From Ulota crispa (taxonomy: Eukaryota; Streptophyta; Bryopsida; Orthotrichales; Orthotrichaceae), in contig OY987242.1 in assembly GCA_963920765.1 (NCBI GenBank), positions 9,450,789 through 9,514,788 of the forward strand: a DNA stretch of 64,000 nucleotides. The letters run 5' to 3'. Shown here piece after piece: positions 6,090 to 63,360 of this stretch. The notes under the pieces were generated by a model. It worked only from the letters and a program-made list of their open reading frames with translations, did no database searches and was not told the origin of the DNA. Numbering within the stretch: position 1 is the first letter of the stretch; each line of letters opens with the position of its first letter. The translations under genes and the position numbers were made by a program.

Positions 6090-6642
6090 TTAACCCCTAA
6101 ATGCCCAAGGAGTAAAGGCAAAATAGAGATGCCTTATAAAATGACATTTTTGTAATTTCAAAAGATTGCTTCAAAAGAGAAAACAAGAATCATGATGTTT
6201 AGTAATTATCCATAGGGTCAAACATTCAAAAAAAGGTTTTGAACTCTTATTTTATGAATTTAGAAGTGTTTACCATTTAATATTCATCAAAATTACAAAT
6301 TTTATTTGTAGAATTTAAAATTTGGTATGATTGGTTAAAAAATTCAAATTACATTCTAAAATTTAAAACTGCAACCTTTTTGAAGGAGACAACATTGTTA
6401 GTTTCCCAAAATAGTAAATTTTGTAACACTAACAAATTTTGAAATATTTGTCTTTGACAAATTTTCCTTGATGGAGTTTAACTTGGATTGACATGATTCA
6501 AACTGGGTTGGAAATTAGACTTGCTTTCCTATTTGAACTTATTTTTTATTTGAAAAAGGTTTTTTTTTTTTTTTCATTTTGGGCAGCCTACAAAAAAAAA
6601 GGCAGCTACCAAAAAATAGTCGATTGGGCGCTCATGGGTTAA
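6090..6642. mobile_element. TTAA-flanked inverted-repeat element (piggyBac-like)
   Basis: The left end is TTAA-CCCCTAAATGCCCAAGG and the right end, read inward on the other strand, is TTAA-CCCATGAGCGCCCA. The ends are only partly alike, so the pairing is less sure than for other members. The interior is AT-rich with homopolymer runs and has no open frame of note. Confidence 0.45.
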
Positions 6643-8397
6643 AATTTGCAAAGAAATTTTGTCTAATAAATTTAATAAACATCCTAACCTAGTAAGTGTG
6701 TCAATACAAAAGATTTAAGCGCTTCCACAAGTTGAGATTCAATATGAAATGGAAACACGGTTGCCAAGTCTTTTTTTCGTTTAACTCTGTTTACTAATTA
6801 TGCATACGTGACAAGCCTTTAACAAAATGAATGGCCTTTAAACAAGGACAATTGGCAAGTTCTTGAACATGCACTACAGGTTTTCTGATAAATGCAACTA
6901 AACCTCCTTGTCCACCTCTTTGGAAACCATTTACCCTCTTGTGCTTGAAAAATATGTATTTTTTGTACACCTTCACATTTTTGGAAAACACATCTACATT
7001 TACATTCATGTAAACTTTGTCATTCATAGAGTTAGACTCTACGGCAATTCCACTCCAATTTTTAAAGAGTTTTTTAACAATATCATGATGACTGAAAAGA
7101 AGAAATTTTTCTACAAGCTGTATATTAACTTTAAACTGCAAAATTTAGATCTTTAATTATTTCATTTATATTTCAACTATATAAATAAACTTATTAAGCA
7201 GGACTTTTTCACGCTCTATCTTCAAAGTAAGCTTCTTTATTCTTTCGACATAAAATCTAAACATTTAGAAATTCTTGAGATGGTATCCCTTCAATCTCAA
7301 AAATTTCCTAATTCCATACATTTTAGCAATTCGAAAATCCTGAGATTCTACCAAGTTGAGAAATTTGTATGACGTACTTTTAATTTCAATAATATCACAA
7401 AGCATTCTTTAGTCTAACTAAAATTACTAATTTAGTGGGGGCTTTCAAACAAAAGTTGTCATTTATGATGTATATATCACACTCCAAGGTTATATCCCCT
7501 GTTGAAAAACAATTTTAATAAATTTTAGGAACTTAGATCATTTCTTCTCAAAAATGGCTATTAGTTACATTTAAACAAATGATTTAGCCCAAAACTTAAA
7601 ATCTCAAATTCTCATTACAACCATTTTAAAAAGTTGAATTTTTTATTTGACGTTGAATTAAAATGATTAAAGGTCAATTCTATGCATTAAAAATGCTTTT
7701 TTAGGTGATGCATACCATCATGGCATACTTAATTAAATATGGACTTTGCAAAGTCCAAAAATAATAATTACAAAATGAAAGACAATGAATTTTGATAGGT
7801 TTATCTAAACATTAGTAAATTTCCTAATAAATTTTCCTCAACATTGAGAGATCTCTTGAAATTTTAACTTATTTTTTCTCAATGTTAAGAATATCTTACA
7901 ATATGTTGCATGAATGATGAATCAAGATTACACGTATAATCCATAAACACATGACTAGTTCATGTTTATTTAAATATGATACTCATTTTCTTTCGCGCTT
8001 TAGAATATAAACAAATAGGTGTATAACAATCAAGAGTATTTTCCATCCAAATTTTAGAATATTAACAAAATGATTTAAGAATGTTTTGATGGAGAAGATA
8101 AATATGTTGTTTTGAATTTTAGAGCAAATGTTGTACATGCAACTTGCAATTAGGTTATTGTGCACTTGAGCATCTTTGTTAATATTTGACTTGGAATTGC
8201 AAATTAGTTGATTGATTTAAACAAGTAACTTTTTCTATTTTCACCAAATGGCTTTTTTCAACAAGTGACTCTTACAAACATCTAATGGATTTCCAAATCT
8301 TGAGATGAGGTTTTTTGTTAATAGATACACGGTTGTAATGTTTTTCTATAACATTTTGGTTTCAAAATTTCTTATTGGTACATTGCTGCTATCTTCT
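6643..8397. other. AT-rich intergenic DNA, no gene seen
   Basis: Strongly AT-rich sequence with only short chance reading frames that lack domain signatures or codon bias. No tRNA, clear promoter or paired terminal repeats were recognised. It may be old transposon debris. Confidence 0.6.
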
Positions 8398-8775
8398 TTA
8401 GCCCTTAAATGTCAAGCTAGTCACTGCGATTAGCCCAGCTACAATGAATTCTATAGTGATTCACTAATTCCAATGGTATCACTGGTGTGGCAAGTGACTA
8501 CTTATTGCAAAAGTGAACTATACATTTTGACCTCATGAAAATTGCAAAAAAGGTAGCATGGGACTTAACACCGTGGTTCTAAATCTTCTTACAATTTTGG
8601 TTACCTAAAACTACAAATATATTTGGTGAGGTAGTTTTCTACCTTCTATGATAGAACATGTGTTTATGATCACTTCTTGAAAAAAAATCAAGTAAAAAAC
8701 TACTTTTTTCTGTTGTGTAGAATGTCTTTTCAGGGCCAGCAGACGCTAAACGTTCCCTTGGCATTTAAGGGTTAA
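8398..8775. mobile_element. TTAA-type MITE, CCCTTAAATGTCAAG subfamily, copy 1
   Basis: The left end is CCCTTAAATGTCAAGC (preceded by TTAG, a changed TTAA) and the right end is GGCATTTAAGGG-TTAA. About 378 bp. The interior (GCTAGTCACTGCGATTAGCC, GGGACCTAACA-like words, CTACTTTTTTC) matches 15961-16345 along its length and a truncated copy at 34150-34397. Confidence 0.75.
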
Positions 8776-9925: not shown

Positions 9926-10607
9926 TAAGGTAGGAGGCTCGTGAATGGACCATCTAAGCTAAAGTGCGCTCTTGTGGAAAAATCAAGGTAGCTTGGGATA
10001 ATGGAAATATTTTTGGTAGAAAGCCAAAGAAGAGACAATTATGTGGTCATTTAATTTGAATTTTGTTGATTTAGTATGAATTAACTACAATTTATCAAAG
10101 CAAAAGGTGTATAGTTAGCTCTTCTCAATCATAGGTGGTAGCATTCATGATGCAAAGGTAGTTTGCAAATGGAGCACATGAGTTTCAAAAGTAACCACTA
10201 CAAAGTCAAGAATGCTCCAACAAGGCTTTTAAAGTGTGCAAGCACCCATTCCATATTGTAATACTCAAATCATGATTGAGAACAAATTTTCATTTATTTC
10301 AAAATGACATGTATGTATATTTTACTATAAGACAAACCTAAACACAATTATGACCAATAAGCACACACAACAGTAATTCATGTCACTCTCTTAACCCCTA
10401 AATGCCCACGACACCAAAACAAGGTGTTTCTAACACTGAAATTTGGGACCGTGGGCATTTAGGGGTTAAGTTCCTAAAACAGTGCATACACAATTACAAT
10501 TTCTGAACATAAAAAAATGTGACCCATTTAAGAGCCTCTGTGCACTGTTTTTGTGACCCAACATGGTTGGTTCAAAATGCCTAATCCAAATTACAGCCTC
10601 CTACCTT
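9926..10607. mobile_element. TA-flanked element, AAGGTAGGAGGCTC ends, copy 1
   Basis: The left end is TAAGGTAGGAGGCTCGTGAA and the right end is TTACAGCCTCCTACCTT. The left interior word GAATGGACCAT also begins the element at 19373-20816. A 79-bp TTAA element (10391-10469) is inserted inside it. No transposase was found. TA at the ends would fit a Tc1/mariner-type or similar non-autonomous element, which is inference. Confidence 0.6.
10391..10469. mobile_element. 79-bp minimal TTAA element (piggyBac-like)
   Basis: The sequence reads TTAA-CCCCTAAATGCCCACG, about 39 bp of centre, then CGTGGGCATTTAGGGG-TTAA. The 16-bp terminal repeats are perfect inverted copies and the 4-bp TTAA occurs on both sides as a direct target duplication would. 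It is nested in the element at 9926-10607. Confidence 0.85.
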
Positions 10608-10611
10608 CACC

Positions 10612-11520
10612 CTTTAGAGACCACCCAATCATATTTTGGTTCAGGAGAGTAGTTTTTGGCCTATACAATAAAATCACTCAACAATTTGGAAAATGATCTT
10701 GAAGAATGCTTGTGATCACAAGAATTTTGCATCCAACCCAAAAAACAACAATAGAATTGGATATGCGAGTTGATAAATAATGGTGTTTATACATCATGGC
10801 CTCAAAATATGTATCCATATTTGGTCAAAGATGGATCAAAGCAACAACACAATAGATCAAACATCCAAGAAAAATGCCATATTTCAATTGTGCAATCTTT
10901 AAAAACTTCAAATTGCTTAAGGAATACACTTGTATTGTTTCTCTATATGGTAGTTGTACAATTGTACTATTTGAGAATCCATTGAAATGATGCTATCATT
11001 TTATTTTTTAAAAAGCTCATCCTACATTTAAGGCCAATTCTTGATTGCTTTCACTAATCAGATTTTTTGTAACAATTATCAAATTTCTTGTAGAATTGTT
11101 TTAGGGTAGCAAAGAAAATGGGATTTTTGACCCTTTTTGTCCCCTTAGCTACACCTTGTGATTGCTATTTTTGTCTATTTTGTGTGAAACTACTCTTGTT
11201 GGAAAGGCGGGAAACCTTGCTTTCTAGAAATGTAAGGTTCTTCTCAATCAAAGCTTGCATGAAGCTCTAACATTCAAAACCACACAAGCATGAAAAACTA
11301 GAGATTTCCCATATACTACTCACTCAATCATTACAATATTTCACCTCCAACAATAAATCTAGCTGAAATTTTGATGCATTGCAACAAACAAGGTGCCTTT
11401 CACATTTGTACGGTTGGATGATTCAAATTGGGTCCACATTTGTTTCAAATGCACATCTAATCTTATAGCCCCGGTTTCTAGTGGATTTTGGGAAAATGTG
11501 TGTGGTCTTTAAAGGGTTAA
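10612..11520. mobile_element. Truncated TTAA-type element with decayed coding-like core
   Basis: The right end reads GTGTGTGGTCTTTAAAGGG-TTAA and matches, in opposite orientation, the left end of the element at 25796-27368. The interior also matches: the frame at 10770-10985 (GVYTSWPQNMYPYLVKDGSK) corresponds to 26408-26560 on the minus strand of the other copy. The left part is missing, cut by the element at 9926-10607. No known transposase domain was recognised in the short frame. Confidence 0.6.
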
Positions 11521-11622
11521 GTGGATTTATATGATTGTACTAGCTTGGTTTGCTGAACTGCAGCAATGGACCATTGTTGACATTGTATTGAGGCCTCCGG
11601 GGTCTTCACATTTCCTCACCTC

Positions 11623-11870
11623 TTAACCCCTAGGGTCAGTCTCTTGGTTTTGAAAAATTTCCTTGTTTGACTATTATAATCTTTTCAATGGTACTATGAA
11701 AGGACTTGTCCTTTTCCTTGGAGCTCCGGGCCTATGTTCACTACCAATTGGTACGGTCAGTTGATTGGTACGGTCAATTTTTGTGGATCTCTTTCAAGTG
11801 ATAGTTTGATTGGAATAAGTTCCAAAGGGTTTGGATTTGAGTGAACTTGTGCTGGGCGGTCAAGGGTTAA
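11623..11870. mobile_element. 248-bp TTAA-flanked element (piggyBac-like)
   Basis: The left end is TTAA-CCCCTAGGGTCAG and the right end is GGGCGGTCAAGGG-TTAA. The inverted ends are imperfect but keep the CCC/GGG termini and TTAA on both sides. No coding frame is present. Confidence 0.5.
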
Positions 11871-13160
11871 GCTTAGTGTAAGCTTGTGGGTCCAATCACT
11901 ATGCTTTACATCAAGATTATAATTACGCAAGCACACGTATGTACTGTAGTATGAATTTCACTTTTGGTTTTCCATACAACAAAAGCGGGAGTTGGATTTT
12001 CTATACAATGAAAAGTCGTAGTGTCCTCTTGCAAACTCATCCAGACACCACAAACACTACGGCAATCAAAACAATGCAAGGATGGTGCAATGTCTCCAGA
12101 TAGATGTCCATGTTATAAAGATGTGTAAAAATTGCAAGACCCAATTTGAAGAATTATTCATCACAAACTTCATCATTGTAATTCACGGTTTGTGGAAATA
12201 GTGCTAGCAATTGATAAAAAGAACAGTTTCAACATACACCGAGAGTTCTTACTTTCCATTGTCTACACGAGTACACATTGCAAGCCCCAATTGGTAGCCC
12301 AAATTGGTAGAACAAATCGGCAACTCAGGCAGCATGCCTAATCAATTTCCTCCGTGTCTAAGAACAACTCACGAACCAAATCACACGCGTGAACCCACCA
12401 TGTGACTGAGAAAGAAAAACATATGAGAGTTGCAATTGCTGAGATAACAAATCCAACATTTCCAAAGTCCAATTCGAAGTGAACTTCACTATATCGAAAC
12501 GATAATTAGTGAAATGAAAACACCATTCAATGAACATTAGAAGTAAACGTGGTGCTACACTCAAATTCAAAACGTCACCATCGAGAAGGAGGTTCCCTGA
12601 GCGTCCAAATCAGAGACTCACAAAAGAGCTACACATTCCAACCGAAGAGCATCACCACAACCACGAAAAAATGATCCTGCAAACACGAACCCACGACTAT
12701 ACTCGAAGGAACGCTGCCCATCGGAGCACGAGCGAGAGTTCACCAAATGCCTTGCACTTCAGTACCCCTCACATCGCACGGCAGGGCCAGCACCAAGGCA
12801 ACTCATACCGATAAAACACTCTGAAATCCACGGATGCAGATAAACAGAAAAAAGCGGTGATGCGGGTCACTATAGCCAGCGACAAGCCACACAAGCACTG
12901 CTGCCACGGTAACAACCCGCAACACATCGATTTCTCAATACTCCCCACATTCCAAGGACCGAAACGTCAAAACCACCGCACACACTTCCCACGCCTGACT
13001 CAGAGCGCCGAACCACCCATTCATCTGACCGGATTTCCCAAAGCACGTTGCACGCGCCTACACCGTAACCCCGTCGCGTGTGAATTCCGGTGAACTTTAT
13101 TAAAATAGACCCGCTGGACCACCCAGCACATGCATTCCAGCATACATTCTCTGACCATTA
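11871..13160. other. Intergenic DNA grading into a GC-richer region, no gene recognised
   Basis: Base composition rises from AT-rich to balanced after about 12300. Short frames at 12530-12814 and 12857-13093 (plus) carry no recognisable motif. This could be the outer flank of the promoter island at 13160-13650. Confidence 0.4.
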
Positions 13161-13517: not shown

Positions 13518-13652
13518 CGGCAGAACATCTTATCCTACTCTACGCTATACCGTCCAACGGTGGACCTACCTCTGCCATCCCTCATTTCTGCAGTTCTCTC
13601 CCCTCCAACTAAGTAGGCTACCGCAATGCGCTCTATTCACAGAATGTTCTAC

Positions 13653-13852
13653 NNNNNNNNNNNNNNNNNNNNNNNNNNNNNNNNNNNNNNNNNNNNNNNN
13701 NNNNNNNNNNNNNNNNNNNNNNNNNNNNNNNNNNNNNNNNNNNNNNNNNNNNNNNNNNNNNNNNNNNNNNNNNNNNNNNNNNNNNNNNNNNNNNNNNNNN
13801 NNNNNNNNNNNNNNNNNNNNNNNNNNNNNNNNNNNNNNNNNNNNNNNNNNNN
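13653..13852. other. Assembly gap, 200 N
   Basis: Exactly 200 undetermined bases, probably a placeholder of arbitrary length. The gap removes the 3' end of the poly(A) polymerase coding region and any link to the GC-rich island on its left. Confidence 0.98.
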
Positions 13853-15143
13853 CTTCCGGTGCAGCGCCACGAAGAACGAGCACACCTGCACCTTCTTGCT
13901 CGCGTCGTGGAACCCGCTCGGGTGCGGGTGGCACTGCAGCATCCCGAACGTGTCCTTCTCCACCTTCAGAATCAGCTGCCGCAGCCGCGACTCCACCCAC
14001 CCCTTCCAGATTCGCATCTCCTCCTCGTCCCCCGCCGAGATGTCGATCTGCAGGTAGTTCTTGTAGCTCTCGAAGAACGGGAACGGGTCGAACAGCTTCC
14101 CCCACTCCGCCGCCTTCGCGTCCAGCGAGTCGCACACGCCGTCCCCGCGCTTGAACTCCTCCGTCATCACGCGCAGCGTGCTGCTCGACACGTTGAAGCT
14201 GGAGTTCGTGCACGGGTACGTCGGCGTTATGATGGGCATCAGGTGCGACCGGTCCCGCGGATTCTTCCGCGGATCCCACACCGGCAGACCCAGCGACCCC
14301 TCCTCGATCGCACACAGCATCACCGGGTTAGGCCACCGCCACTGCTTGTACACCCGGAAGAACCTCGACAACAGCACGCTCGGCACCGCATTAGGGTACA
14401 ATTGGCAAATGCGAGCCACAAGCAAAGCCCAGTTCACACCTCCCAGAAACCCGATCACATTCGAATAAACCTCTCGCCTCTTGGCCCACAGCTTCACGTA
14501 CCTCAGCGTGGTCCGGAAGTGCTCCATGTTCGGCACCAGCCGCAGGATGCGATCCGTCACGCGGCACCCGTTCAAGCTCCGCACGCTCTGCTCGTCCACA
14601 TTCTGCAGGATGCTGTCCTGCAGAATGTCCAGCTCCTCCGGCACCACCCACAGCGGCAAGCCGCGCGTACAGCAGGTCGATCGGGATCCCGTTGAACTTG
14701 AAGCTCATCACCGGCACATGCGCGTCCGGCACCGTGTGCAGCTCCGTCACGCCCTCCGTCCGGGCCAGCAGCTCGTGCAGCTCCACGAAGAAATCCTCCT
14801 CGCGCGTCACGTAGCACGGCCCCACGCACAGCGTGTCGATGTCCGCGCCCGGCCCGTGCACGCCCAGCCGATACGACCCGAACGTGAAGATCTTGCACCG
14901 CGCCTCGCGCACGTACTCCTCGTTCAGCCCCTTGTTGCGGCTCACCAGCTTCGCCCACACGTTCACCAGCTCGTCCAGGCGCCCCAGCACCTCCTCGCGC
15001 CGCACCTCCTCCTCGCGGCTGCCCTGCAGCGCCAGCCCCCTCACGCAATCCTCCAGCTGCTTCGTTGCAGCGAAATCCGCCTCCGTGGGACCGGCCGTGG
15101 AAATCGGCTCCGTCACGCCCATGTAGCGATGCTGCCCCTCCAT
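13853..15143 (-). pseudogene. Canonical poly(A) polymerase, intronless, frameshifted and cut by a gap
   Basis: Nuclear poly(A) polymerases add adenosines to cleaved pre-mRNA 3' ends. The ATG at 15143 opens a frame of 161 codons starting MEGQHRYMGVTEPIS, matching the GVTEPIS-AGPTEAD start of plant enzymes. The nucleotidyltransferase motif is complete: FGSYRLGVHGPGADID (GS at 89-90, Asp 101 and 103) and the third acidic residue, Asp156, in NGIPIDLLYA. After Arg161 there is one surplus base (about 14660). The frame then resumes at 14659 as LPLWVVPEELDI and runs 269 codons through VRSLNGCRVTDRIL, GFLGGVNWALL, RWPNPVML, WDPRKN, MPIITPTYP and WKGWVESR into the N gap. All of this lies in one exon with high GC. 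The single-base shift may be a sequencing error or a real lesion, and with the absence of introns a retrocopy is possible. A GTG further upstream (15182) is not a likely start. Confidence 0.85.
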
Positions 15144-15960: not shown

Positions 15961-16345
15961 TTAACCCTTCAAGGCCGGGCTGGTCACTGTGACTAGCCCG
16001 GCTACAGTATACAGTAAGTACAGTTCATCTTAGTGCCCAGAAGTGTCAAGCAATTATTAAAATATTTTATGTAGTTGCAAGAGCTAACAATGCATGGTAT
16101 CCTCATGGAAATTGCAAAAAGGACAGTTTGGGACCTAAAACAGTACTTCTGAATCTTATCACAATTTGGGTTACCTAAAAATATGAATGCATATGATGAG
16201 GTAATATTTTGCCTTCCATGATGGTTCATGTATTTATGATCACTTCTGAAAAAAAATCAAAAGGAGAACTACTTTTTTCAGTGACACAAAATCTTTTTTT
16301 AGGGTCGGAGGACGTTCTTTGTCCTCCTTGACGTTTAAGGGTTAA
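15961..16345. mobile_element. TTAA-type MITE, CCCTTAAATGTCAAG subfamily, copy 2
   Basis: The left end is TTAA-CCCTTCAAGGCC and the right end is CCTTGACGTTTAAGGG-TTAA, 385 bp apart. The interior aligns throughout with 8398-8775, including CTGGTCACTGTGACTAGCCC near the left end and a run-rich CTACTTTTTTCAG near the right end. There is no coding frame. Confidence 0.8.
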
Positions 16346-19753: not shown

Positions 19754-20683
19754 TTAACCCCTAAATGCCCAAGGCACCAGATTCTGGTGTCCAAAAAATT
19801 TTAGGAAACTTTGAAACCCTGTTGTAGGCACAAATTTTGTTGTTTTGGGGTTTTCTTTTTTGGGAAATTTGCTCGCTCAAGTTAGCTTCACCATTCAAAT
19901 TCAACTTCCTTCATATCTTATTCCATTTGTTTTTGGTGGAAAGTTAAGTAGAAGCATACATTTTCTATCAAGAATAGTGTTGTGAATCATGTCATGAATA
20001 GTGTTATGAATAGTGTCACAGAGCCTATGAGAAGTTGCCACATTGAAAAGACAGGCATCAAGTTGAGCAAAAGGTGAAGATTTCCCTTGGGCACTCCCTT
20101 GGACAACAAGGGCCTTTTTACTGAAATTTTGACATCTAACAAAATCTAAAAGTCCTTTTGGACTAATTTCACTTGGAATGTCTTTGTTATAGAAATTAGA
20201 ATCCTTTCACTGTTGAAAATTTTTCATTTGTAATGAGTTTTGGTCAATAATTGAAGTTGGAAATTTCTTTGTATTAGAGGATTGCATTTTGACAATTGTA
20301 TTGCAGGCTCATTTGTGAAATTGTGGTCTTGGATTTGGAAGACGGGCCATTGGTTTTGAAGTAACAACAATAAACACTAAAGCATCCTAAGTGGTTGTTT
20401 CCCAATTTTGTATCCAAAAGTTGTCAATTTGCATCAGAAGTTTTGAGCAACTCCAAAAAAAGCAAAAAATTCCATACTCATCATCATTCAATCACAAATA
20501 TCTTAAAATATGTGCGGCCATTTTGGATTATTTTTGGGAGTGCCATCTAGAAACCTTGAAGTTCAAGATTCAATGGTTACAATTTTGTTTTGATGTTTAA
20601 TAATGATCTTACAAGGACAATTCAAAAACTTCAAAACTACCTTCGGCAAACAAGAAAAACACCCTTGGGCATTTAGGGGTTAA
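19754..20683. mobile_element. 930-bp TTAA element, CCCCTAAATGCCCAAGG ends
   Basis: The left end is TTAA-CCCCTAAATGCCCAAGG and the right end is CCTTGGGCATTTAGGGG-TTAA. The 17-bp terminal repeats are perfect and TTAA flanks both sides, as expected for piggyBac-type insertion. The interior has short frames but no recognisable transposase. It is the best-preserved mid-size member of this family in the window. Confidence 0.85.
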
Positions 20684-24588: not shown

Positions 24589-25799
24589 TTAACCCAAAGC
24601 GCCCATGCCATTTCCACCAAAATCAGAGATTTGGGAGATTTACAACTTTGATGCATTGTATCTCACTTTTTTAAATAATTCACAAAAGTGATCATTCAGA
24701 ATAAGGGAACACCTACTTAGAAAACGGCTTGCAAATTTTAGGAACACTTGATCATAGGAGATGGGAGATTATAACATTTGATGGCAAAATCTCATTTTTT
24801 GGCAAGTAGTTGCTATTTTTATGATCCTTACAAAATTCTATAAGCCCCTAGTTCATTTCAATTTTGCTGAGTAGCAAGATTAGATGTGCATGCACAATCT
24901 TGCAAATTACTAAAGATTGTCCCTCTTTTTATGTTAGTTTTAGGGTTTCAAATTGTTATTGCACAAAAAATAGTGATTGGCATAAACGGTGAGGGTTGCC
25001 ACAACAAGGGTTTAGAACATACTTAAATCCTTGCTAGCAAATTTCCGGTTACCACAAAGCACAAGTAAAGAAGCTTGCAAGGAATATTGATTGATTGCAG
25101 CTTGTAAGCCACCACTCCTTGTATGGTGTTTCACCCAATCAAGACTCTTGAGGCACTTGTACATACAACATTTGGTTTGCCTTGCCATTACTCCACTTGC
25201 ATGAACCACTTGAATACCTTCATGATTGCAATTTATAACAAGATAAAAAAAATTAAATCTAGTACCTCAAACAAACCTTTGAAATTATGTGAGGACAATT
25301 TTGGTTCTCTAGGGCATGGTTTTCTTTTTTTTGGTTTTCTAACCAATAGCTATATAACATTCTTTGAAAATGGTTTATAGCTTGTTGGCTCCATCTCTAT
25401 TTTTGGTTAGAATTGAAGGTGACCCCTATGCATGAATTTTTGCAACATCATAACAATTAATTATGAAATTAAGTAGAAGCTAGCACAATCAACTTTTTGA
25501 CGGTATTTTTAAATCTGTCTCATCACAAAATGATGGCATCAATTTTCAATTTGATAAGAATCTCATGTAAGCCTAGACTACAATGCAATTTTTGTTATTG
25601 CAATCTTAGATTTTTTGAAAAACATTCCTTTTTTTTTCTTCTATAAGCTTGAAGCTCACATATTTTTTGAGACCATTGGGCCTCTAATCATTAGGGCCGC
25701 GGGAGCTAATTTTGGTCAATTTTAGCACTAATCTAGGGCGCCCTCGATCAAAGGGTTAATTGCTAAAAAAAACCCTGCTTTTGGGCGTTCAGGGGTTAA
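24589..25799. mobile_element. 1.2-kb TTAA element, subfamily with GCGCCC ends
   Basis: The left end is TTAA-CCCAAAGCGCCCATGCC and the right end is GGGCGTTCAGGGG-TTAA. The right TTAA (25796-25799) is shared with the next element. Interior sequence at 25400-25680 (CCTATGCATGAATTTTTGCA, GATGGCATCAATTTTCAATT) matches the minus-strand interior of 25796-27368, so both belong to one subfamily. No intact frame is present. Confidence 0.6.
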
Positions 25800-27368
25800 C
25801 CCTTTAAAGACCACACACATTTTCACAAAATCCATTAGAAATTGAGGTAGTAAATCGAAATTTAGAGTTGAATCAAATATGGACCTAGTTTGCATAATCC
25901 AATTGTACAAATGGAAAGAACACCTTCTTTACTATAAACTATCAAAATTTCAACAAGATCTACCGTTCGAGCTGAAATATTATAATGATTAAGTGAGCTA
26001 CAAGTGGAAAATCTCTAGTTTTTCATGTTTGTGTGGCTTGGATCTTACTGCTTCTTACAACCTTTGCTTGAGAAGAGCCTGATATATCTAGAAAGCAGGT
26101 TTTCCCACCTTTCCAACAAGACTAGTTTCACACAAAATGAATAAAAATAGCAATCACAAGGTGTAGCTAAGTGGACAAAAAGGGTCAAAATTCCACTTTC
26201 TTTGCTACTCTAATACAACAAATTTTTTGATAACTGTTATGGAAAATCCAATTGGTGAAAACAATCAAGAATTGGCCTTAAATTTAGGATGAATTTTTTT
26301 AAAAATGAAATGATAGCACAATTTCAATAGATCTTCAAATACTATAATCATACTACTATTGTATAGAGAAACAAAACAAGCGTATTTCTTAAGCATTTTG
26401 AATTTTTTTAACACCACACAATTGACATGTGGCCTTCTTTTTGGATGTTTGATGTATTTTGTTGTTGCTTTGATCCATCTTTGACCAAATATGGATTCAT
26501 ATTTTGAGGCCATGTTGTATAAACACCATAATTTATCAACTTAGATGCCCAATTCCATTGCTCTTGTTTTGATTGGACGCAAAATTCTTGTGACCACAAG
26601 AGTTCTTCAAGAACAATTTCCAAATTGTTGAGCAATTTTACTTTATAGGTTGAACCAATGTTTTTTTTGGGCAATTTAAGGCCCAATTGCCTCAAAAATA
26701 AAAGGTGAGCTTCAAGACTATAGGAAAAAAAGGGGGATTTTTTTTCAAAAAATGCCAAATTGCAATAATGAAAATTGCATTGTAGTCTAGGCTCCCATAA
26801 AATTCTTGTCAAATTGAAAATTGATGCCATCACATTAAAATTATTTGAGGTGTTGTCTAATCCAATTTGGCAATTCCATGCAATAATTAAGTAATGCCAA
26901 TGATTATTTGGATATTAAAAAAAAATGTTAATGAATAATTTTTGCCTACAAAGTGAATCCCATGATGCTGCAAAAATTCATGCATAGGTGCCACCTTCAA
27001 CTCCAACCAAAAATAGGATGGAGCCTGCAAGTTACAAGCCATTTTCAAAGAATGCCACACAAGCATTGGTTGAAAAACCAAAAAAAAAACCGTGGGTTGA
27101 ACCAAAATATGGTTTGGCAGTCCCTAAACATCGAAGCCTTGAGCGCCCAAAGTTATTTTAAGATTTAGGAGAAAATGGGAATTTAATGGCCACCACAGCT
27201 TGGAAAATTACATTTAGAAAAAGTGACCGTAGGATTTGAAAAAGGACTACCTTCTCTACTGATGGGAACTAGCTATGATTGTTTTCACTATACAAATCGA
27301 AAGAAAAAATGAGATAAAGTTGTGGGCCCCAACAACAAGATCTTGTCGCTGGGGCGCTTAAGGGTTAA
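25796..27368 (-). mobile_element. 1.6-kb TTAA element with decayed coding-like core
   Basis: The left end is TTAA-CCCTTTAAAGACCAC and the right end is GGGGCGCTTAAGGG-TTAA. On the minus strand the interior has coding-like pieces: WLELKVAPMHEFLQHHG in the frame ending at 26887 and INYGVYTTWPQNMNPYLVKD in the frame at 26408-26833. They are interrupted by stops and frame changes. The second piece is also in 10612-11520. No DDE or zinc-finger motif could be recognised, so the pieces are only candidate remnants of a transposase or passenger gene. Confidence 0.65.
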
Positions 27369-27406: not shown

Positions 27407-27637
27407 TTAACCCTTGAGTGCCCGATCAACATTATACTGTTGATGGGCCCACAAACTTTATCTCACTTTTTCTCTTAATCTGTACTGTGAAAATAGTCAT
27501 GGTTGGTCCCATCAGCAAAGAAGGTAGTCCTCTTTCAAATCCTGCAATCACTTTTTCTGAATGTAATTTTCCAAGCTGTGGTGACCATTAAACCCCATTT
27601 TCTCCTAAATCCTAAAATCTGGGCGCTCAGGGGTTAA
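27407..27637. mobile_element. 231-bp internal-deletion derivative of the 1.6-kb TTAA element
   Basis: The left end is TTAA-CCCTTGAGTGCCCG and the right end is GGGCGCTCAGGGG-TTAA. The interior (CCCACAAACTTTATCTCACT, AGGTAGTCCTC, CCAAGCTGTGGTGACCATTAA) is the inverse of 27160-27350 inside the neighbouring element, which lies only 38 bp away. It ends about 247 bp before the start codon of the acidic protein gene. Confidence 0.75.
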
Positions 27638-34055: not shown

Positions 34056-34149
34056 GTGGCACTGGAATGATAATTCAACTATAATAAAGTGAGTGCTTCA
34101 TTTTGTACTCCTTTATTTTTTGGATTTTCAGTTTTTGGATTGATTCTAT

Positions 34150-34397
34150 TCACCCCTAAACACCTTGCTAGTCACTGTGATTGCCTCTCTACAATGCTTG
34201 CCCCTAGGACTGCCATTTTACAATGCTTGGTAAGTGCCCACTCATTATAATAATGTTTCTAAAAGTTGAAAAAGTTAATAGTGCATGTTGACCTCATGAA
34301 AATTACAAGAAGAGCAATATGGGACCTAACATTGTGGCTCTAAATTTTCTCACAATTTGAATTACCTTAAAATATGTATGCATTTGATGAGGTATTT
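34150..34397. mobile_element. Truncated TTAA-type MITE, CCCTTAAATGTCAAG subfamily, copy 3
   Basis: CCCCTAAACACCTTGCTAGT followed by interior words shared with 8398-8775 and 16 kb (GACCTCATGAAAATTACAAG, GGGACCTAACATTGTGG, CACAATTTGAATTACC). It stops abruptly where the next TTAA element begins, so it was probably interrupted by it. Confidence 0.6.
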
Positions 34398-34615
34398 TAA
34401 CCCCCAAAGGACCAAGGAGCCCAATTTAGGCTTTATGAGAGCTTGGGCAGGCTCTATTGACTTCATAATTTGGGATTTTTTCATGAAATTTTTAGGATGG
34501 ATGCTACTCATCATAATCTACATGAATAGCTTTATTTCTTGTCATTCCAATAAGTAAAGCAAAAGTTGTAAGGTTTTTTCAATTTCAATGTCAAACCGGG
34601 CAGCAAAATATATAC

Positions 34616-34696
<81 letters not shown>

Positions 34697-35367
34697 CTTT
34701 ATAGATTGATACTTGCTCAAAAAACATTGAACCACTCAATTCCAAATAATGAGGTAAGAATAAAAAGGGGTTTTATTTTGTGGGCAATGAAGGTAGGAAG
34801 AGGGTAGAAAAAACATATGAAGCTATCTTTTACTCTCAATTTTGAAAATTTTCAAATGAAAATGAAAATAAAAGTTACTAATTATCTATTAGAGCATTCT
34901 CACTATTCGGATTAGCAATTTTCAAATTCTTCCAAAACTTATTAGCATATTAGTTATATCTTTCATTCATGAATACCTTCCACTTTACAATTTTTGTAAA
35001 ATTGAATCCAAAATATTTTTTGGTTAAACTTTTTTATATATGCTTTCAACCCATTTTCCAACATATTGCCAAAATTGCACAAGAAATACAACATACGGGT
35101 TTTTCTCTAAAAAGTTTGAAAAACAAACTTCAACTTCTGGAAGGGCTAGAAAAGCCTACATTTTGAAGTTTAGGCTCATTGATCTTGCAATTGGTGGTTG
35201 TGTTCATTCTAAAAATTTTGGCATAATGCACTTGTGCAAGTCAACCAAAGGATCCTACGGTTGGATTTGTTAAAAGTAAATTTCAATGAAGATTTTGACC
35301 TTGGTTTGGGGACTAGTACTTTGAACCAATTTTGGGCCTCTAAACACAAAAGAATTTTAGGGGTTAA
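34397..35367. mobile_element. TTAA-flanked element containing an AT microsatellite
   Basis: The left end is TTAA-CCCCCAAAGGACC and the right end is GAATTTTAGGGG-TTAA. Inverted similarity is limited to about 8 bp, so the pairing is tentative. It interrupts the MITE at 34150. The AT repeat at 34609-34691 lies inside. Confidence 0.4.
34609..34691. repeat. AT dinucleotide microsatellite
   Basis: About 83 bp of nearly pure TA/AT dinucleotides with two ATAC interruptions near the left end. Likely variable in length between individuals. Confidence 0.95.
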
Positions 35368-35467: not shown

Positions 35468-36406
35468 TTAACCCCTAAAGGATTGAGCCATTTTTTTAGC
35501 GAAATCACTCAAAACTGCCACTTTTGGGGGGGTCAATAAGAACGTAATTTTTTTTGAAAATTTGGGAAATCCAATCGTAGGATCTTGCCCTAGACTGGAT
35601 TAGGTACTTTTGGAAAAAAATCAGATCATTCCAGATGGACATGAGTGGGATGTTTACATCTAAAGTGAAAAGAAAAGATTCTTTTCATGCTACCCCAAAA
35701 TTTCAGAAGCTTTTGACCATTCTTACATGAAAATAATTGCTCTATGCAACTTTGCACTTTATTTTCCACATGTGGGAGATCAAGTTAGCTATGTGTGGGA
35801 GAATTTTCAAATCAATTGGAACTACACAGCACATGGGAAAAATCAATAAGTAAAAACAAGTAGAGAATGTGTCAAAACACTAAATTGTAAAGACTTTAAT
35901 TATGGAAATGAAAAATGAAAATCCCAACAGTGATAATGTTGTGATAAACAACCTACTTCCTTTGGTTTAATTTATTTTTCCAAAATAATGAAAATTGAGT
36001 AAAATAAAGAACTTCAAAGTTTATTTTAGAGTAGAGATTCCATAATTGCCCGCAAACAAAAACTCCTCATAACTTTCATCTCATTGATTGAAATTGAATG
36101 ATTCAAAACTTCTCACCTATTAAAAAAAATCTAAAGAACCAATTTCAAATTTTGATTTTTAAAAATTAAATTTTTAAAGAAGTTTTTGGGCTACCCAGGC
36201 GGGCAGTCCTCCCCAACTCTTCAAAAATTCTTGCGTAACTTCTTCAATAATTATTGGAATGAGGAAAAAATTAGATGCCCACGTAGATCTTTGAATTCCC
36301 CACCTTCAATAAAAGTTTCAGAAAATCACACAAAGTAGCTTATCCAAAGGTACATGCCTGAACTTCCACCTGTCCCTCGAAGGGACAATAGTCCTTTAGG
36401 GGTTAA
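35468..36406. mobile_element. 939-bp TTAA element, CCCCTAAAGGACC subfamily
   Basis: The left end is TTAA-CCCCTAAAGGATTGAGCC and the right end is GTCCTTTAGGGG-TTAA. It aligns end to end, in opposite orientation, with 46688-47623. Shared words include CATCTCATTGATTG, CCCACATGTGGGA-like and the GGGCATG/CATGCC word near the GTCCC end. Confidence 0.75.
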
Positions 36407-40860: not shown

Positions 40861-40940
40861 ATTTACCCATAGATGGCCAAGGAACCAAATTTTGGTGTTC
40901 TGCAGACAAAAAATTGATGCCTAGAGCATTTAGGGGAAAA
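40861..40940. mobile_element. Decayed short TTAA-type element
   Basis: About 80 bp with ends TTTACCCATAGATGGCCAAGG and GCCTAGAGCATTTAGGGGAA and a central ACCAAATTTTGGT palindrome. It resembles the 79-bp element at 10391-10469 and the ends of 19754-20683 but is more degraded, with TTAA lost on both sides. Confidence 0.45.
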
Positions 40941-46687: not shown

Positions 46688-47623
46688 TTAACCCCTAAAG
46701 GATCGTTGTCCCTTTGGTGAACAATTGAGATTTTGGGCATGTACCTATGGGTAAACTACTTTGTGTAATTTTTTGAAACTTTTATGGAGGATGGGAAATT
46801 CAAAGATCTTTGTGAGCATCTAACTTTTTCCTCATTTTGACATTTGACGAAGAAGTTATGCAAAAATTTATGCTGCCCAGGGGAGGGAGGGCAATCCGGG
46901 CAGCCCAAAAACTTCTTTAAAATTTAAATTTAAAAAAATAAAAACTTGAAATCGGTTCTTTAGATTTTCTCATATGTGGGAAGCTTTTAATCATTTCATT
47001 TCAATCAATGAGATGAAAGTTATGAGATGTTTTAGTTTGTGGGCAGTTATTGATCCTCTTCTCTAAAATAAACTTTGAAGTTCTTTATTCTCCACAGTTT
47101 TCAATATTTTGGAAAAAAATTAAACCTAAGGAAGTAGATTGCATATTACAACATTATAACCATTGGGATTTGCATTTTTCATTTCAATAATTAAATTCTT
47201 AACAATTTAGTGTTTTGACTCATTCTCTACTTCTTTTTACATACTATTTTTTTTGCATGTGTTGTATAGTTCGAATTGATTTGAAAATTCTCCCACACAT
47301 GCCTAACTTGGTCTTCTACATGGAGAAAATAAACCTGAACTTTGTGTAGAGCAATTTTTTTCATGTAAGAGTGGTCATAGGCTTCCAAACTTTTTGGACA
47401 GCACGGGAAAAAACCTTTTTTTTCACTTCAGATGTAAATATCTCCCTCCCCCCATCTAGAATGACCGGATTTTTTCCCACAAGTACCTCTTCTAGTCTAA
47501 GGCAAGACCCTACGTTTGGATTTCCATAAAAATAAAAAAAACCTACCTTCTTACTCATCCCTTAGAAGTAGCAGTTTTCAATGATTTTGACAAAAAAAAA
47601 AGGCTTGATCCTTTAGGGGCTAA
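46688..47623. mobile_element. 936-bp TTAA element, CCCCTAAAGGACC subfamily
   Basis: The left end is TTAA-CCCCTAAAGGATCGTTGTCC and the right end is GATCCTTTAGGGG-CTAA (one base off TTAA). It aligns along its length with the inverse of 35468-36406 and in part with 51055-52402 and 62179-63360. It shares the outer arm sequence with the foldback at 45357. No transposase frame is present. Confidence 0.75.
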
Positions 47624-51054: not shown

Positions 51055-52402
51055 TTAAACCCCTAAAGCACTGAACACCTTTTTTTGGCAACATAGCAAT
51101 TTTGGGCAGCTCACTATCAATGGGGTTTTCATTTTTTTTCTTTGAAATTTTCACACATGATGTGTCCAAGGAGTAACTTTAAGGCCCAACAAATTTCCAA
51201 GCTTTTGACTTCATAATTCAAAAGTTATTGCATGATATGTAGATTTCTTTGCTCGGCGAGCAGCCAAATTTTTTTTTTAAATTACATTTTTTGAATTTTG
51301 TTTTTTGAAATCGATTCTTTAGATTTATATATACTTGGGAAGCTTTTAATCATTCCATCTTGATCAATGAGATGAAAGTTATGAGGACATTTTGTTATCA
51401 ACAGCATTAAAGGAAAATTGAGCTTAAGAAAAGGCCCCTACACCTTGACAAACCACTCTATTTATTGAGGTAGGAGAAGCATAGGTAATGTACCTACACA
51501 AGGGTCTCTACCTTATGTGAAGTACTCAAATGTACCATGGTACATATCAAAAGGATTGATGATGAAAAACAATATTATAACATGACAATGACAAATGTAA
51601 GGACCTTTAGTGGGACACAAGAATAAACTAGGACAAGAATTCCAAGTCAAACAAGGACACTCATCAAACAAAAAGCATATGATATTGTAAAAAGAAATTA
51701 ATCTCATGAAGTACCTATAAGCGCATATAGGGGATTTATTAGTCTCTTTTTATTTGAAAAAGGACATTACATTTAAACGCTTTTGACCCCTCCTACCACT
51801 TCCTGTAGGAGCCTTCTCTTGAGCTCATTTTTTATCCATAAGTTATGGATTCTCTATTCTAAAATAAACTTTGAAGTCCATTAATTTACTCAATTTTCAA
51901 TGTTTTAGAAAAAAAACAAAACCAAAAGATGTAGATTGTTTATCAGAACATTACAACCATTGGGATTGGAATTTTTCATTTCCAAAATTTAGTTCTTAAC
52001 AATTTAGTAGTGTGAATCATGCTCTACTTTTTTTTTACTTACTATTGTTTTTCCATGTGTTTTACAATTCCAAATGATTTGAATTTTTTTGAGTGCGCAC
52101 CCAACTTGCTTTGAAGAAAAAATCCAAAAAATTACAACCATTTAAATATGACCTTGTGAAGTGAAGTTGCTTGGATTTTTGCAAAGATAAAAAATAGCTT
52201 TTGGTCAATTCAAACACAAATGTCTAACAATCTAGATGGTGAAAACTCCTGAATTTTTTTTCACATCTTTTGATACTAGTGTTGTACAAGAACTTACGAC
52301 TACATTTGTCCAAAAAAAATCCTAAACTTTGGTACCTGTACTAAAAATGGTAGTTTTGGAGCGATTTTGGTGAGAAATTGAGCTTAGTGCTTTAGGGGTT
52401 AA
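51055..52402. mobile_element. TTAA element, CCCCTAAAGCAC ends, with a nested insertion
   Basis: The left end is TTAA-A-CCCCTAAAGCACTGA and the right end is GTGCTTTAGGGG-TTAA. Interior words (GATCAATGAGATGAAAGTTATG, CCATTGGGATTGGAATTTTTC) are shared with 46688-47623. About 51460-51800 is an extra segment bounded by GAGGTAGGAGAAGC and CCTCCTACC, probably a TA-type insertion inside it. Confidence 0.65.
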
Positions 52403-54201: not shown

Positions 54202-54206
54202 GTACA

Positions 54207-57200: not shown

Positions 57201-58139
57201 GTCCAGAGAGAGGCAAGAGACTTAAACTTCTACAGGCCCATGCGAACACTTTAACAGAGTTCCTTCTAGTGAACCTAAGCCTAACGGCCCGGATGAACCG
57301 AAAGTAGCAGGTCATTCCTACAGCATGTTCAAATGTTTCCTAGCACAGAGTGATGTGTAGTATGCGTACGTATCTTACATGAGGGGGTTAGAGGAATTCT
57401 AGAATAAGTCGTGTTCAAAAAGCTTAGCTATATGCTCATGCTGTACTGTACTTACACCGTGCTCTCCAAACACCCTCCATCAAGCAACATACTCGAGGGC
57501 TGGATGGCCGGAAATTACTTTGGGACCTTGAAAACATTTGTAGCTACAAGTAAAGTGTTCTCGATTCCAACCACCCTGAATGAGTGATACTGATGCATGA
57601 CTACCTGATTGTGTGCAGATCTTTGCCGCACCCATGTACGAATTTCTGGACACGTTTGTTGTAGCAAAGGTGGCTCCTGCAGTCCAAGCTCAGACCAGCG
57701 AATTCACTCCCGAGAAGATTGCCCTTCGCCTCGTCTTCAGGGGGTTGTTCATAGCCATGAGCACATTTATTGGTTGCCTTCTTCCGTTCTTCGGAGACTT
57801 CATCGCGCTTACAGGCTCCTTGGCAGCCTTCACCCTGCAGGGCGGGTTCATACATCACATGGTCATCAAGGTATGCATGCTCCTGACCCACCACGTCGAC
57901 TAACATCTCACTTACTAGCTTCTCAGGTTCATTTTTTGGTATTGTAATTTGGGGATTGAATACTGACATTTTTTTGGGTGCTCATTCAGGTGCGAGGCAA
58001 GGAGCTTTCGGGTGCCTGGCTAGCGTGGCACTGGGTGAACGTAGTGGTGAATGCGGTGGTCATGGTTGCATGTGTGGCAGCCTCCATTCACTACATCATT
58101 CACGATTCCACGACTTACCATGTGTTTGCCAATTTGTGA
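54207..58139 (+). CDS. Proline/compatible-solute transporter, AAAP family (ProT-type), copy B
   Basis: This is the paralogue of 613-4520 in inverted orientation, predicted to import proline and similar solutes across the plasma membrane with protons. Exons: 54207-54375, 54773-54997, 55343-55437, 55787-55964, 56167-56291, 56624-56839, 57619-57870 and 57990-58139. All introns are GT-AG, and the total is 470 codons including TGA, giving 469 aa. The N-terminus MISWQKAVSPPAIRADPELG differs most from copy A and is one residue shorter. The transmembrane core is nearly the same: TAHQIGQDAWWSVGFHLVA, HIRYRDLCGHVYG, VTWITQYSNLSIANVG, VPGTTLANWICFAGVLY, TGILPEM, GYWAYGNVVFPY, LPFFGDFIALTG. The gene is intact. 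From 57649 to 58137 (exon 7, intron 7, exon 8) it is identical to copy A by eye, whereas exon 6 has 19 differences in 216 bp. Family assignment is strong; substrate range is inferred. Confidence 0.94.
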
Positions 58140-58930
58140 GTTGCTAATTTGCTATAGCAGCTTACTAGTTTTTGTTTTGCCCTAGCATGAGTTGGAACCT
58201 TTAAGACACAGACTCGGACCCTGAGTGGGCATTTTCTAGACCTACTACTACGAATAAACCTTAATTCATAGTACGAGGGATGGACGCTGAGGTGTGACGT
58301 TACTTTTTAAGGCTGATCAGACATCAGTTAAGTTTAAAACGACAATGTTTTGGGCTCCATTTCCACTAGGGCAGAGGGGGGTTCAGACTTCAGTGTGGTT
58401 CAAAGTCCAAGATATGTAGATAGTTTTATTAAACGTGCAATGCTGCAACGATTACTGCTCGTAGCATTTGTTTTGCTCGCTTCTATCGGTGTGTCATTTT
58501 TTGGAATATGCCATTTTAATTTTTTACGAAGTGGATGTTATCAGGGTCCAAAGGGGAACAATTTTTTTCATGTGTAGAAAGTATCACTATCCATTTGAAA
58601 ACTTGTAAGCAGTCTGAGCCTCTGAGGTGCCTGGTATGGTTTGCCACTTTGCCCCCTGATTCTTCCCAAGTTTGGTCAGATTGAGCATAAGTTTGAGGAA
58701 TTTTTGGCCATGATATCGATGAATCATGAATGAATATATTTAACACTACCCAGCTACCTACCTGCACACACCTCAGCCAAATCCGACCTTGCTTTGACAC
58801 TACCATACAAGTAGAGAAAACTGGCTGAAAGTTGGATACCCTCTAATCCCTCTGTGAGGCACACACCTGAAACAAGAACCTAGGTGCATCAAATTTTGGA
58901 TGAAAGTTATATATAGTTTTAGCTTAATAA
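58140..58930. other. 3' flank of ProT gene B, no gene seen
   Basis: It begins with the probable 3' untranslated region, which keeps a TTTTTGTTTTGCCCTAGCATG motif related to that after copy A. The frames at 58350-58577 and 58516-58806 overlap on opposite strands and show no recognised content. Confidence 0.5.
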
Positions 58931-61253: not shown

Positions 61254-61758
61254 CTTAGTGCTAATATACCGAAACATTGAAATTGGGATACATGTGGTTT
61301 AAAATAGTATCTCAATTGACTTCGTTTCAAATTTAAAGAATTGCATTTAGTATCTGAATGCCGTTTCTGGACATAACTTTAGAAGTTTTTTTGTGAACAT
61401 AACTAAACTAGAAATTTCAATGATTCACAATCAATCATATGTGGTCATCGTAAAAGATTTTTGGTAACAGATTAGCCTATTTCAATCTTAGAAGGAAAAA
61501 GTCTTTAATCATGCAGTCAAACTCCAAAGTCCTTTGTGTCTTTCAATTTGTCTTTGTATGCAAATTGTAATCTCCATTTACAATTTTAGAGGTAATATCT
61601 TATGTGTTCTACAAACTACTGCAATTCTTTTTTCTTGTAGAATTTTAAAAACTTCTGGTAATTCTCTGAAGCAAAAATGAAACTGATATTATTCTAAAAT
61701 AGATTCTGACGTAGATATTCCATCTCATGTTTATGTTATAGCATAAAACATTGTATTA

Positions 61759-62181
61759 TAAGGTAGAAGCACCCCTCACCATTAGTGAACCCAATCCTCG
61801 ATCGATATCTACTGGCTACTTGTGTTAGCAATGTCAGTGATTTGACAATTAAAAAAACATTGGTTGTGAGTGACAAAGTGATGGTTTTGGGTGATTGGCA
61901 TGACGGTTTTGAGTGCCCTATCTCACTATTCAACAACTCCTCAAATTAGTAATTATGAGCATATGACCACACTAAAAACATCTCCTACACACAACTATAC
62001 ATTTTAGTGATTTAGGACTTCAAAAATCTTTGTGAACAAATCCTTGCAATTGGAACTTGTAAATTGATGCTTGTATTTTTTATTTCCTCTTCCTAACTTA
62101 ATATGATTTTTTTCAAAGTTCATCAAGTGATTCTCCTACTTCAAAACCCTTAGTTTCACGCTTATGGGTGCTCCTACCTTA
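61759..62181. mobile_element. TA-flanked MITE, AGGTAGGAGCACCCATAA ends, copy 3
   Basis: The left end is TAAGGTAGAAGCACCC and the right end is TTATGGGTGCTCCTACCTTA. The right tip overlaps the TTAA that starts the next element. Interior GTGAGTGACAAAGTGATGG is related to the copy at 33122-33499. Confidence 0.7.
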
Positions 62182-63360
62182 ACCTCTAAAGGCCCAATTG
62201 TCCCCTCAAGGGACAAATGGATTTTGGGCATGACCTATAGCTAAACTAGTTTGTGTGATTTTTTGAAACTTTTATTGAAGGTGGGGAATTCCAAGACCTA
62301 TGCGGGTGTCTAATTTTTTCTTCATTCCAACATTTGATGAAGAAGTTATCAAGAATTTTTTGAAACTAGGCAAGAATGGGCAATTCAAGCAAAACCTCTC
62401 TTTTGTAAGTGGGTGTTGACTCCAAAGAGGGTCAACCCATGTGGGCACAAGGTATGGACACTTGGGCAAAGGGGCATAGAGTGGAAGGTGCCCATGCATC
62501 TAGGGGGGACTCCCAAACCTCCATTCCTTTTGTCCCTAATGCGGTATTTGTTAATTTGGGAAAAATAGGGGTCCCACTTTGTTTTCCCCTCAAACCCAAA
62601 AAGTTACTTTAAAACTAGATTTGAAGGTATCAGATTCAATCTAAGCCACTAAGATTTTTTCCCTCGCAAATCCCTCCTCTCAGGTGAGGGCACGTGTCGG
62701 TTTGAGGTGATCACCTCAAACTTCTTGACTCACTTCTTGAAAGTCCCAAAATGTACCATTTTTCCTAAATTAACAAATATCGTGTTGCCCTTGTAAAATT
62801 GGGTGCTTTAATCTTTTGAGCGTCTTGAGTGTTTGTTTTATAATTTTTTTTTTCCGTTTGTAGTAGGCTAAGAACCCTTTGTTTACATAGTTTTAATCAA
62901 TGTGATTTGAATTTTTGAGTACTACGTAAAACCACCAATTTTGCCTAGTGTATATGCAAATTTCATGACCTTTTGGCATTGCAAGACTTTACAAAATATG
63001 TTTCACACCTCCAATTCATTTGAAAATTCTCCCACACTTACCTAACTTGGTCTTCTACATGGAAAAATAAACCTCAACTTTGTGTAGAGAAATTTTTTTG
63101 ATATAGGAAGGATCAAAGGCTTCTAAAAATTTTGGGCAGCCAGGAAAAATACTTTTTTTTTCAATTCTGATATCAATATCTCACTTACCTTCATCTAAAA
63201 TGAGCTGATTTTTTTCTCACAAGTACCCCATAGTCTAGGGCAAGATACTTTGGTTGAATTTCCAAAGAAATATTTTTTCCTACTTTTCTACTCATTCTTC
63301 CAAAAGTGGCAATTTTTAGTAACTTTCATAAAAAAAAGGGCTTGGGCCTTTAAGGGTTAA
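62179..63360. mobile_element. TTAA element, CCCCTAAAGGCCC subfamily, carrying a nested MITE
   Basis: The left end is TTAA-CCTCTAAAGGCCCAATTG and the right end is GGGCCTTTAAGGG-TTAA. The outer parts match 46688-47623 (TTTTGGGCATG, GGTGGGGAATTC on the left; ATGGAAAAATAAACCTCAAC and CAAGTACCCC on the right). The MITE at 62541-62783 sits inside, so it inserted later. Confidence 0.7.
62541..62783. mobile_element. MITE, GTTAAATTGGGAAAA family, copy 3
   Basis: The ends GGTATTTGTTAATTTGGGAA and CCTAAATTAACAAATATC are inverted, with interior words AGGTGATCACCTCAA and AAGTCCCAAAATGTACC as in copies 1 and 2. It is nested in the TTAA element at 62179-63360. Confidence 0.75.

Follow-up and report, generated by a model that had tools for sequence, protein, structure and literature searches.

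The 64,000-nucleotide stretch of DNA analysed here (hereafter the window, meaning the whole stretch) carries about 18 elements or parts of elements that are flanked by TTAA and are CC-ended, and an end-scan together with self-comparison assigns 11,232 bases (17.5%) of the window to them. An earlier note on this DNA had listed ten such intervals and, from their ends, had placed them in the piggyBac superfamily of DNA transposons. The members recognised in the present analysis are given below, where MITE denotes a miniature inverted-repeat transposable element and L with a number a transposase locus of the same assembly.

6090..6642, no strand assigned: TTAA element of 553 bp with ends CCCCTAAATGCCCAAGG / CCCATGAGCGCCCAATC, from the end-scan alone
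8398..8775, plus strand: 15961-family element of 378 bp, flanked by TTAG on the left and TTAA on the right, aligned end to end with 15961-16345
10391..10469, no strand assigned: element of 79 bp, almost pure terminal inverted repeat of the AAATGCCC type, inner flanks matching at 14/14
10606..11520, plus strand: element of 915 bp with ends CCCTTTAGAGACC / CCCTTTAAAGACC, left TTAA altered to TTCA, genomic copies near full length
11641..11870, no strand assigned: repeat with right end TTAACCCTTGACCGCCC, from genomic copies
15961..16345, plus strand: element of 385 bp with ends CAAGGCC / AAACGTC, from border reading and self-comparison
19754..20683, plus strand: MITE of 930 bp, AAATGCCC type, from homology to L012 and L022, genomic copies and empty sites
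25796..26650, minus strand: 10606-family copy with the other end lost, 82% alike to 10660-11520, the alignment stopping near 26645
27132..27368, minus strand: element of 237 bp, GAGCGCCC type, left TTAA decayed, from the end-scan
27407..27637, plus strand: element of 231 bp with ends GAGTGCCC / GAGCGCCC, from border reading and the inner-flank match
34149..34396, plus strand: left part of an 8398-family element, cut by 34397-35367, the alignment stopping at TTAA 34397
34397..35367, plus strand: element of 971 bp with ends CCCCCAAAGGACC / CCCCTAAAATTC, nested in the 34149-34396 element, from genomic copies with flanks
35468..36406, plus strand: element of 939 bp, AAAGGAYT type (a member of the AAAGGAYC group), from borders and self-comparison
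40862..40940, no strand assigned: decayed 79-bp element resembling 10391-10469, from the end-scan and 68% likeness to a 78-bp element in L009
45354..46089, no strand assigned: foldback of 736 bp, halves 87% alike, AAAGGACC type, from self-comparison
46688..47623, minus strand: element of 936 bp, 80% alike to 35468-36406
51055..52402, minus strand: element of 1348 bp with AAAGCACT ends, from locus homology and sites without the insert
62179..63360, minus strand: element of 1182 bp, AAAGGCCC type, holding another dispersed repeat at about 62545-62809, from self-comparison

All ten pairs of borders in the earlier list read TTAA followed by a CC-start end, except that 47623 reads CTAA and 51055 has one A more. 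Words of the form TTAA-CC[CT][CT]T occur 11 times on the plus and 17 times on the minus strand, 4 to 7 times the means of 2.8 and 2.5 (maxima 7 and 9) obtained in 100 first-order shuffles of the window. The TTAA-CCC(C/T)T form is thus confirmed by the end structure at all ten pairs, by these words and by copies that stop at TTAA. Eight of the ten intervals stand; 11623-11870 is retained for its right end only, and 25796-27368 joins two different elements, its left part, 25796-~26650, being a copy of the 10606-11520 element and its right part, 27132-27368, being related to 27407-27637 as a sister in the opposite orientation. The claim of at least ten elements holds, and further members lie at 6090-6642, 8398-8775, 10606-11520, 27132-27368, 34149-34396, 34397-35367, 40862-40940 and 45354-46089, the first of them starting at the coordinate with which the earlier finding opens. 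The piggyBac reading is unaffected by the wrong interval, the unsupported border or the elements that had been missed. Two candidate pairings were rejected in this work: 6090 with 8775, because 8775 pairs with 8398 and 6090 with 6642, and the mechanical pair 34397 with 36406, because genomic copies end at 35367. The 45354-46089 element is one long foldback that perhaps arose when two like ends of the AAAGGAYC family fused. At 5/52 ends a subterminal palindrome reached the 95% level of random window pieces, and it is therefore no general feature.

The borders were examined by comparing copies. Elements 35468, 46688, 51055, 62179 and 45354 align from TTAA to TTAA, and their flanks differ. When the best 40 of 2,265 candidate places for 19754-20683 were scored genome-wide, 33/40 (the element itself included) covered exactly 1-930 and 38/40 started at 1-3 and ended at 929-930, the 39 others being 86-92% alike. 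For 10606-11520 the best 40 of 2,405 candidates gave 41 matches of nearly full length; besides the element itself, 39 are 91-93% alike and one is 83% alike. A query that included flanks, 34330-35520 (best 40 of 2,123 candidates scored), was matched in one piece from 63-69 to 1037-1054 by 35/39 other copies, with four split; the commonest start (68) and the commonest end (1038) correspond to 34397 and 35367, TTAA to TTAA. An 8398-type element resuming behind 35367, which would be a full empty site for 34397, was looked for and not found. With query 11560-11930 the 39 other copies start at 80-89, and 38 of them end at 310-323 and one at 284; these copies thus begin at about 11641, supporting the right TTAA end at 11870 and leaving the left border at 11623 unsupported. 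At G000:C3:20890952-20892779 two elements of the 10606 family stand back to back with four bases common at the joint, as if one TTAA served both.

The earlier note had suggested that the assembly be searched for DDE_Tnp_1_7 transposases with matching ends, and these proved abundant. A profile search of the 275 Mb assembly with PF13843 (DDE_Tnp_1_7), in which the best 116 of 528 first-look candidates were scored, returned 120 matches, all above the cut-off, the best at 1.3e-73, and on each of contigs C1-C11. Twenty-three transposase loci were read, 20 of them with 3.5 kb flanks. In 11/20 of the latter (L009, L010, L012, L013, L014, L016, L017, L018, L022, L027 and L028) the transposase is enclosed by TTAA-CC ends of the window type, 5.0-6.8 kb apart. 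The TTAA is altered at one end in L017, L018 and L022, and the CCC at one end in L010 and L016; the two ends of a locus agree at 10-16/16 bases, L016 being the weakest. One end alone could be assigned in L011, L025 and L026. Inverted ends of 12-19 bp with CC[C/T]T, as in piggyBac, are present in both window elements and transposase loci.

Pfam names the domain PF13843, and matches in PDB are to the piggyBat (9c0f; 1.8e-16, 2.6e-24) and piggyBac (6x67; 3e-13, 7.6e-20) transposases. Among rows with a residue at the position, the three catalytic aspartates of the DDD triad are kept in 21/23, 16/23 and 13/15, many copies being decayed; the eight rows lacking the third aspartate stop before its position, and the next frame stretch in most of them has GVDVADQ-like words. 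Cysteine-rich tails, which may correspond to the C-terminal cysteine-rich domain of the piggyBac superfamily, were seen by eye in L012, L022 and L027. One large group of transposases (L014 1239-2420 and L019 5867-6601; also L021, L009, L018, L017, L010, L015 and L028) shares a conserved stretch, about 70 residues long and like NWGYLCRRQIAKLLGW, on the 5′ side of the DDE domain. The L014 and L019 copies have no Pfam match, and the stretch is possibly an undescribed N-terminal domain. A second group has another conserved N-terminal stretch on the 5′ side, DGYxWPRPxPPP-like (L013 1901-2092, L027 6449-6652, L054 533-1165).

The most direct connection between the window and these transposases is given by 19754-20683. 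Its two ends align with those of L012 as far as the TTAA, one at 84% across 564 aligned columns and the other at 67% across 209, and it also matches both ends of L022. It is thus derived by deletion from an element of the same kind as the transposase-bearing L012 1028-6773. The AAAGGAYC group is linked to transposase loci at a single end: 35468 and 46688 match L025, L026 and L011, 62179 matches L025 and L026, and 51055 matches L025 and L011. Element 35468 is 76% alike over 359 to the end of L025 and 68% alike over 511 to that of L026, and the inner part 351-782 of 51055 resembles sequence that lies 5′ of the transposase in both L025 and L026 (84% and 80%). In L025, L026 and L011 the end lies 3′ of the transposase at a distance of 1.9-2.2 kb from its domain, faces outward and is not accompanied by the other half of element 35468. 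The three loci resemble one another across the transposase and, once more, across the final 400-640 bases before TTAA; for these reasons the ends most likely belong to the transposase elements.

The existence of several mobilising lineages, proposed earlier from the different end types, fits the transposase tree. In a tree of the 23 transposases, L012/L022 (AAATGCC ends) and L011/L025/L026 (AAARG ends) form well supported adjacent clades, joined by a fork with 84/84 that is not starred, and both are apart from transposases with CATYGCC, SACCGCC, CAACGCC, AAGCRCC and other ends. In this small sample the two sister pairs whose ends were read on both sides, L012/L022 and L009/L018, each share an end word, and different clades have different words.

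Empty sites were sought by joining the flanks of 28 elements (16 of the window, 12 of the loci) with a single TTAA and comparing them with the window and the 20 loci. A paralogous site without the insert was met by 3/16 window elements: 10391, 19754 and 51055. For 10391-10469 there is one such site, in L018, 76% alike and reading CTGA. Genome-wide, sites with a single tetranucleotide in place of the TTAA/TTAA of the occupied site are present for two insertions. The flanks of 19754 gave, among the best 40 of 3,128 candidates scored, 40 places that all cross the junction without insert, 84-90% alike; this element is inserted in another very common repeat (3,128 first-look candidates), which itself has inverted parts. 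The flanks of 51055 gave 38 places besides the element's own sides that cross the junction to 139-169 of 264, where the host repeat ends. TTAA flanks both borders of most genomic copies displayed, as it does 34397/35367, in agreement with duplication of the tetranucleotide. The joined flanks of L027 gave matches to other repeats, in some cases across the junction, and these are left out of the empty-site count. Inside an inverted duplication of the window (568-5495 / 53179-58191) no gap bordered by such ends was found.

The copy number of the end words is very high. The exact end word TTAACCCCTAAATGCCCAAGG occurs 2,118 times (1,054 + 1,064) and TTAACCCCTAAAGGAYC 8,948 times (4,467 + 4,481), and the reversed control word of each occurs 0 times. 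Among the first 100 listed places of TTAACCCCTAAATGCCCAAGG there are 17 convergent neighbour pairs (637-938 bp) and one divergent pair within 1.5 kb. First-look candidates number 528 for piggyBac (349 positions), 74 for MULE (99 positions) and 89 for the hAT dimer (84 positions), a rough comparison in which profile lengths differ and which covers piggyBac, MULE and hAT.

Taken together, we interpret the window elements as MITE-like and non-autonomous, belonging to several piggyBac families of a moss and depending on transposase that is or was supplied in trans by like-ended elements, and put the probability of this interpretation at about 0.96. A DDD transposase (DDE_Tnp_1_7) would be supplied, now or formerly, by the 5.0-6.8 kb like-ended elements elsewhere in the genome; it would bind, in trans, short ends beginning CCCYT, the element would be cut out, presumably seamlessly, and it would be joined at a TTAA that becomes duplicated. 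The earlier assignment from ends is supported by transposases between like ends, by the empty sites and by the long homology of 19754-20683. Neither of the results that had been named in advance as refuting, another target duplication at empty sites or a partner of another superfamily, appeared. By their terminal likeness, the 10606, 27407, 15961, 11641 and other such families would depend on like-ended piggyBac lineages.

Several observations weigh against this interpretation or limit the evidence for it. TTAA pairs whose inner flanks are alike number 20 in the window, compared with 0.6 in 40 shuffles, but the count is unspecific: AATT (31), ATAT (69) and TATA (55) all exceed it, just 7/20 of the TTAA pairs are CC-start, and two of these seven join ends of different elements. 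Since other AT tetramers give more inverted pairs, the simple TTAA pair count alone proves nothing. In-frame stops are present in 110/120 of the DDE_Tnp_1_7 matches, although some may lie in introns, and most transposase copies are decayed. No end pair was assigned in 6/20 loci (L015, L019, L020, L021, L023 and L024), some of which hold single end-like words. The empty sites of 19754 read CTAA in 7/9 alignments, CTAC in one and CTCA in one, and never TTAA; because TTAA stands at either border of the window copy, a TTAA must have been present in the repeat copy into which it inserted, so the pattern is compatible with a TTAA requirement without being a direct view of a TTAA target. The five 51055 sites that were read out show TCTA, ACTA or TTTA and a length difference of one base. 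The AAAGGAYC group is less firmly linked than 19754-20683, as no 5′ end was located in L011, L025 or L026 and the homology among these loci has a gap between transposase and end. Ends like that of element 35468 are found in 8/20 loci, where about five would be expected by chance, as estimated from their genome-wide density.

The assignment is less firm for the families 10606, 27407, 15961 and 11641: the 20 loci that were read, out of at least 116 scored candidates, yielded no transposase element homologous to them beyond the ends, and their end words alone agree with some transposase element. Their parents may be extinct, they may depend on piggyBac lineages outside the loci read, or they may not be piggyBac. 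We regard these alternatives, taken together, as rather unlikely, given that these families have the same TTAA-CCCYT ends and that the end words of L013 (CCCTTTARKGACC) and L014 (CCCTTSACCGCC) are close to those of the 10606 and 11641 families. Another alternative is that the elements are mobilised by another TTAA-targeting superfamily, Kolobok or a Sola group, with the piggyBac genes as bystanders. TTAA alone does not separate piggyBac, Kolobok and Sola. Sola1 is moreover given for Physcomitrella in the accessible table of a review (PMC9033089). Against this, 19754-20683 resembles two DDE_Tnp_1_7-enclosing elements at both ends and over long stretches, which for the AAATGCCC type is clear evidence, the AAAGGAYC group shares one end with three further transposase loci, and ends of 12-19 bp with CC[C/T]T beside TTAA are described as a piggyBac hallmark in the available part of a report on coral elements (PMC2872659). 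We therefore hold mobilisation by Kolobok or Sola to be very improbable, although no search aimed at their transposases was made. Chance TTAA sites beside AT-rich repeats might be invoked, as TTAA is frequent in the window (373 sites) and other AT tetramers match or exceed its inverted-pair counts, but copies end at TTAA and thousands of exact end words stand against zero reversed controls, which makes this explanation negligible.

The piggyBac interpretation can be compared with known systems, as far as the accessible parts of the reports allow. The moss elements resemble animal piggyBac (T. ni piggyBac, piggyBat and the PB clades of PMC10813416) in having DDE_Tnp_1_7 with DDD, a TTAA duplication and CCCTT/CCCYT ends, and a 4-bp duplication with CC..GG termini is given for piggyBac elsewhere (PMC10045372). 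They differ from it in the moss host, in the length of the both-ended elements (5.0-6.8 kb) and in that some moss lineages have a conserved N-terminal stretch lacking a Pfam match. Lengths above 5 kb are known from animals too, whose piggyBac elements span 1.23-9.51 kb (PMC10813416). The gap between the first and second aspartate is 77-99 residues in the moss transposases versus 78-81 in animal clades (PMC10813416). The short elements resemble coral CMITEs, which are likewise short with TTAA and CC[C/T]T ends, empty-site pairs and piggyBac with like ends in the same genome (PMC2872659), but the moss elements are 79-1348 bp long and of several families, one having long homology at both ends to a transposase element.

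PiggyBac is counted as a MITE superfamily of angiosperms in one paper (PMC10004981) and as a class II superfamily of plants in another (PMC10794571), and a 2023 abstract states that piggyBac was isolated from insects, fungi and plants (PMC10813416). A fern table lists 1,230 PiggyBac copies at 0.00% of sequence (PMC6890710). The accessible part of a 2022 review of land-plant transposable elements gives Tc1-Mariner, hAT, Sola, MULE, PIF-Harbinger and CACTA as terminal-inverted-repeat superfamilies, with piggyBac absent there (PMC9033089), and a study of expressed transposons in Physcomitrium names Mariner elements, the word piggybac not occurring in its accessible text. The moss genome paper that was met contains the word 'piggybacking'. 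No description of a worked-out piggyBac transposase family of a moss was found in the literature searched, Repbase and subscription journals being outside the search.

That the host is a plant, as the earlier note held, is borne out by plant-type genes in the window and by a chloroplast psaA with four differences in 448 residues from the best PsaA in PDB. Contig C157 (112.5 kb) carries two full PsaA/PsaB genes. The best PDB entries for the 448 psaA residues read are 6l35 and 8htu (1021 bits versus 994 for the next sequence), which we take to be PsaA of Physcomitrella, and the host is most likely a moss, judged from these sequences. As the window lies in a 41-Mb contig and transposases are present on each of C1-C11, contamination is no fair reading. 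The window genes include a poly(A) polymerase that resembles plant sequences and amino-acid transporters. At 13649-15206 the poly(A) polymerase domains lie in two overlapping frames with no intron between, beside a 200-N run, and this is either a frameshifted copy or an assembly error. The inverted segmental duplication 568-5495 / 53179-58191, 75% alike, carries an amino-acid transporter gene; Aa_trans is identified by Pfam in the 568-5495 copy and similar frames are present in the 53179-58191 copy. Open frames 26408-26914 and 6794-7144 have no Pfam family. A further dispersed repeat family occurs in both orientations at 16644-16958, 22413-22619, 37910-38223 and 47969-48079 by self-comparison.

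Here, new families of a known superfamily were described in an unusual host, in great number and mostly decayed. The superfamily itself is known, chiefly from animals and rarely from land plants, and its scale in a moss is the notable point. We tentatively suggest, at slightly less than even odds, that a number of piggyBac lineages, each having an end word and a MITE swarm of its own, have been a major force in this moss genome (more than 11,000 exact copies of two end words), that they perhaps provide its commonest cut-and-paste transposases, ahead of the MULE and hAT counted, in part with an undescribed N-terminal domain, and that they would constitute the first autonomous piggyBac system to be worked out in a land plant. 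Although piggyBac is a common tool of animal transgenesis, the accessible part of a recent list of DNA transposons in land plants does not include it (PMC9033089). The finding suggests that plant pipelines built on six superfamilies leave part of moss repeats unclassified. With a plant genome that holds many transposase lineages and swarms of like-ended MITEs, the inheritance versus acquisition of piggyBac in plants becomes testable, as do the coevolution of ends and transposases and the silencing of piggyBac by plants.

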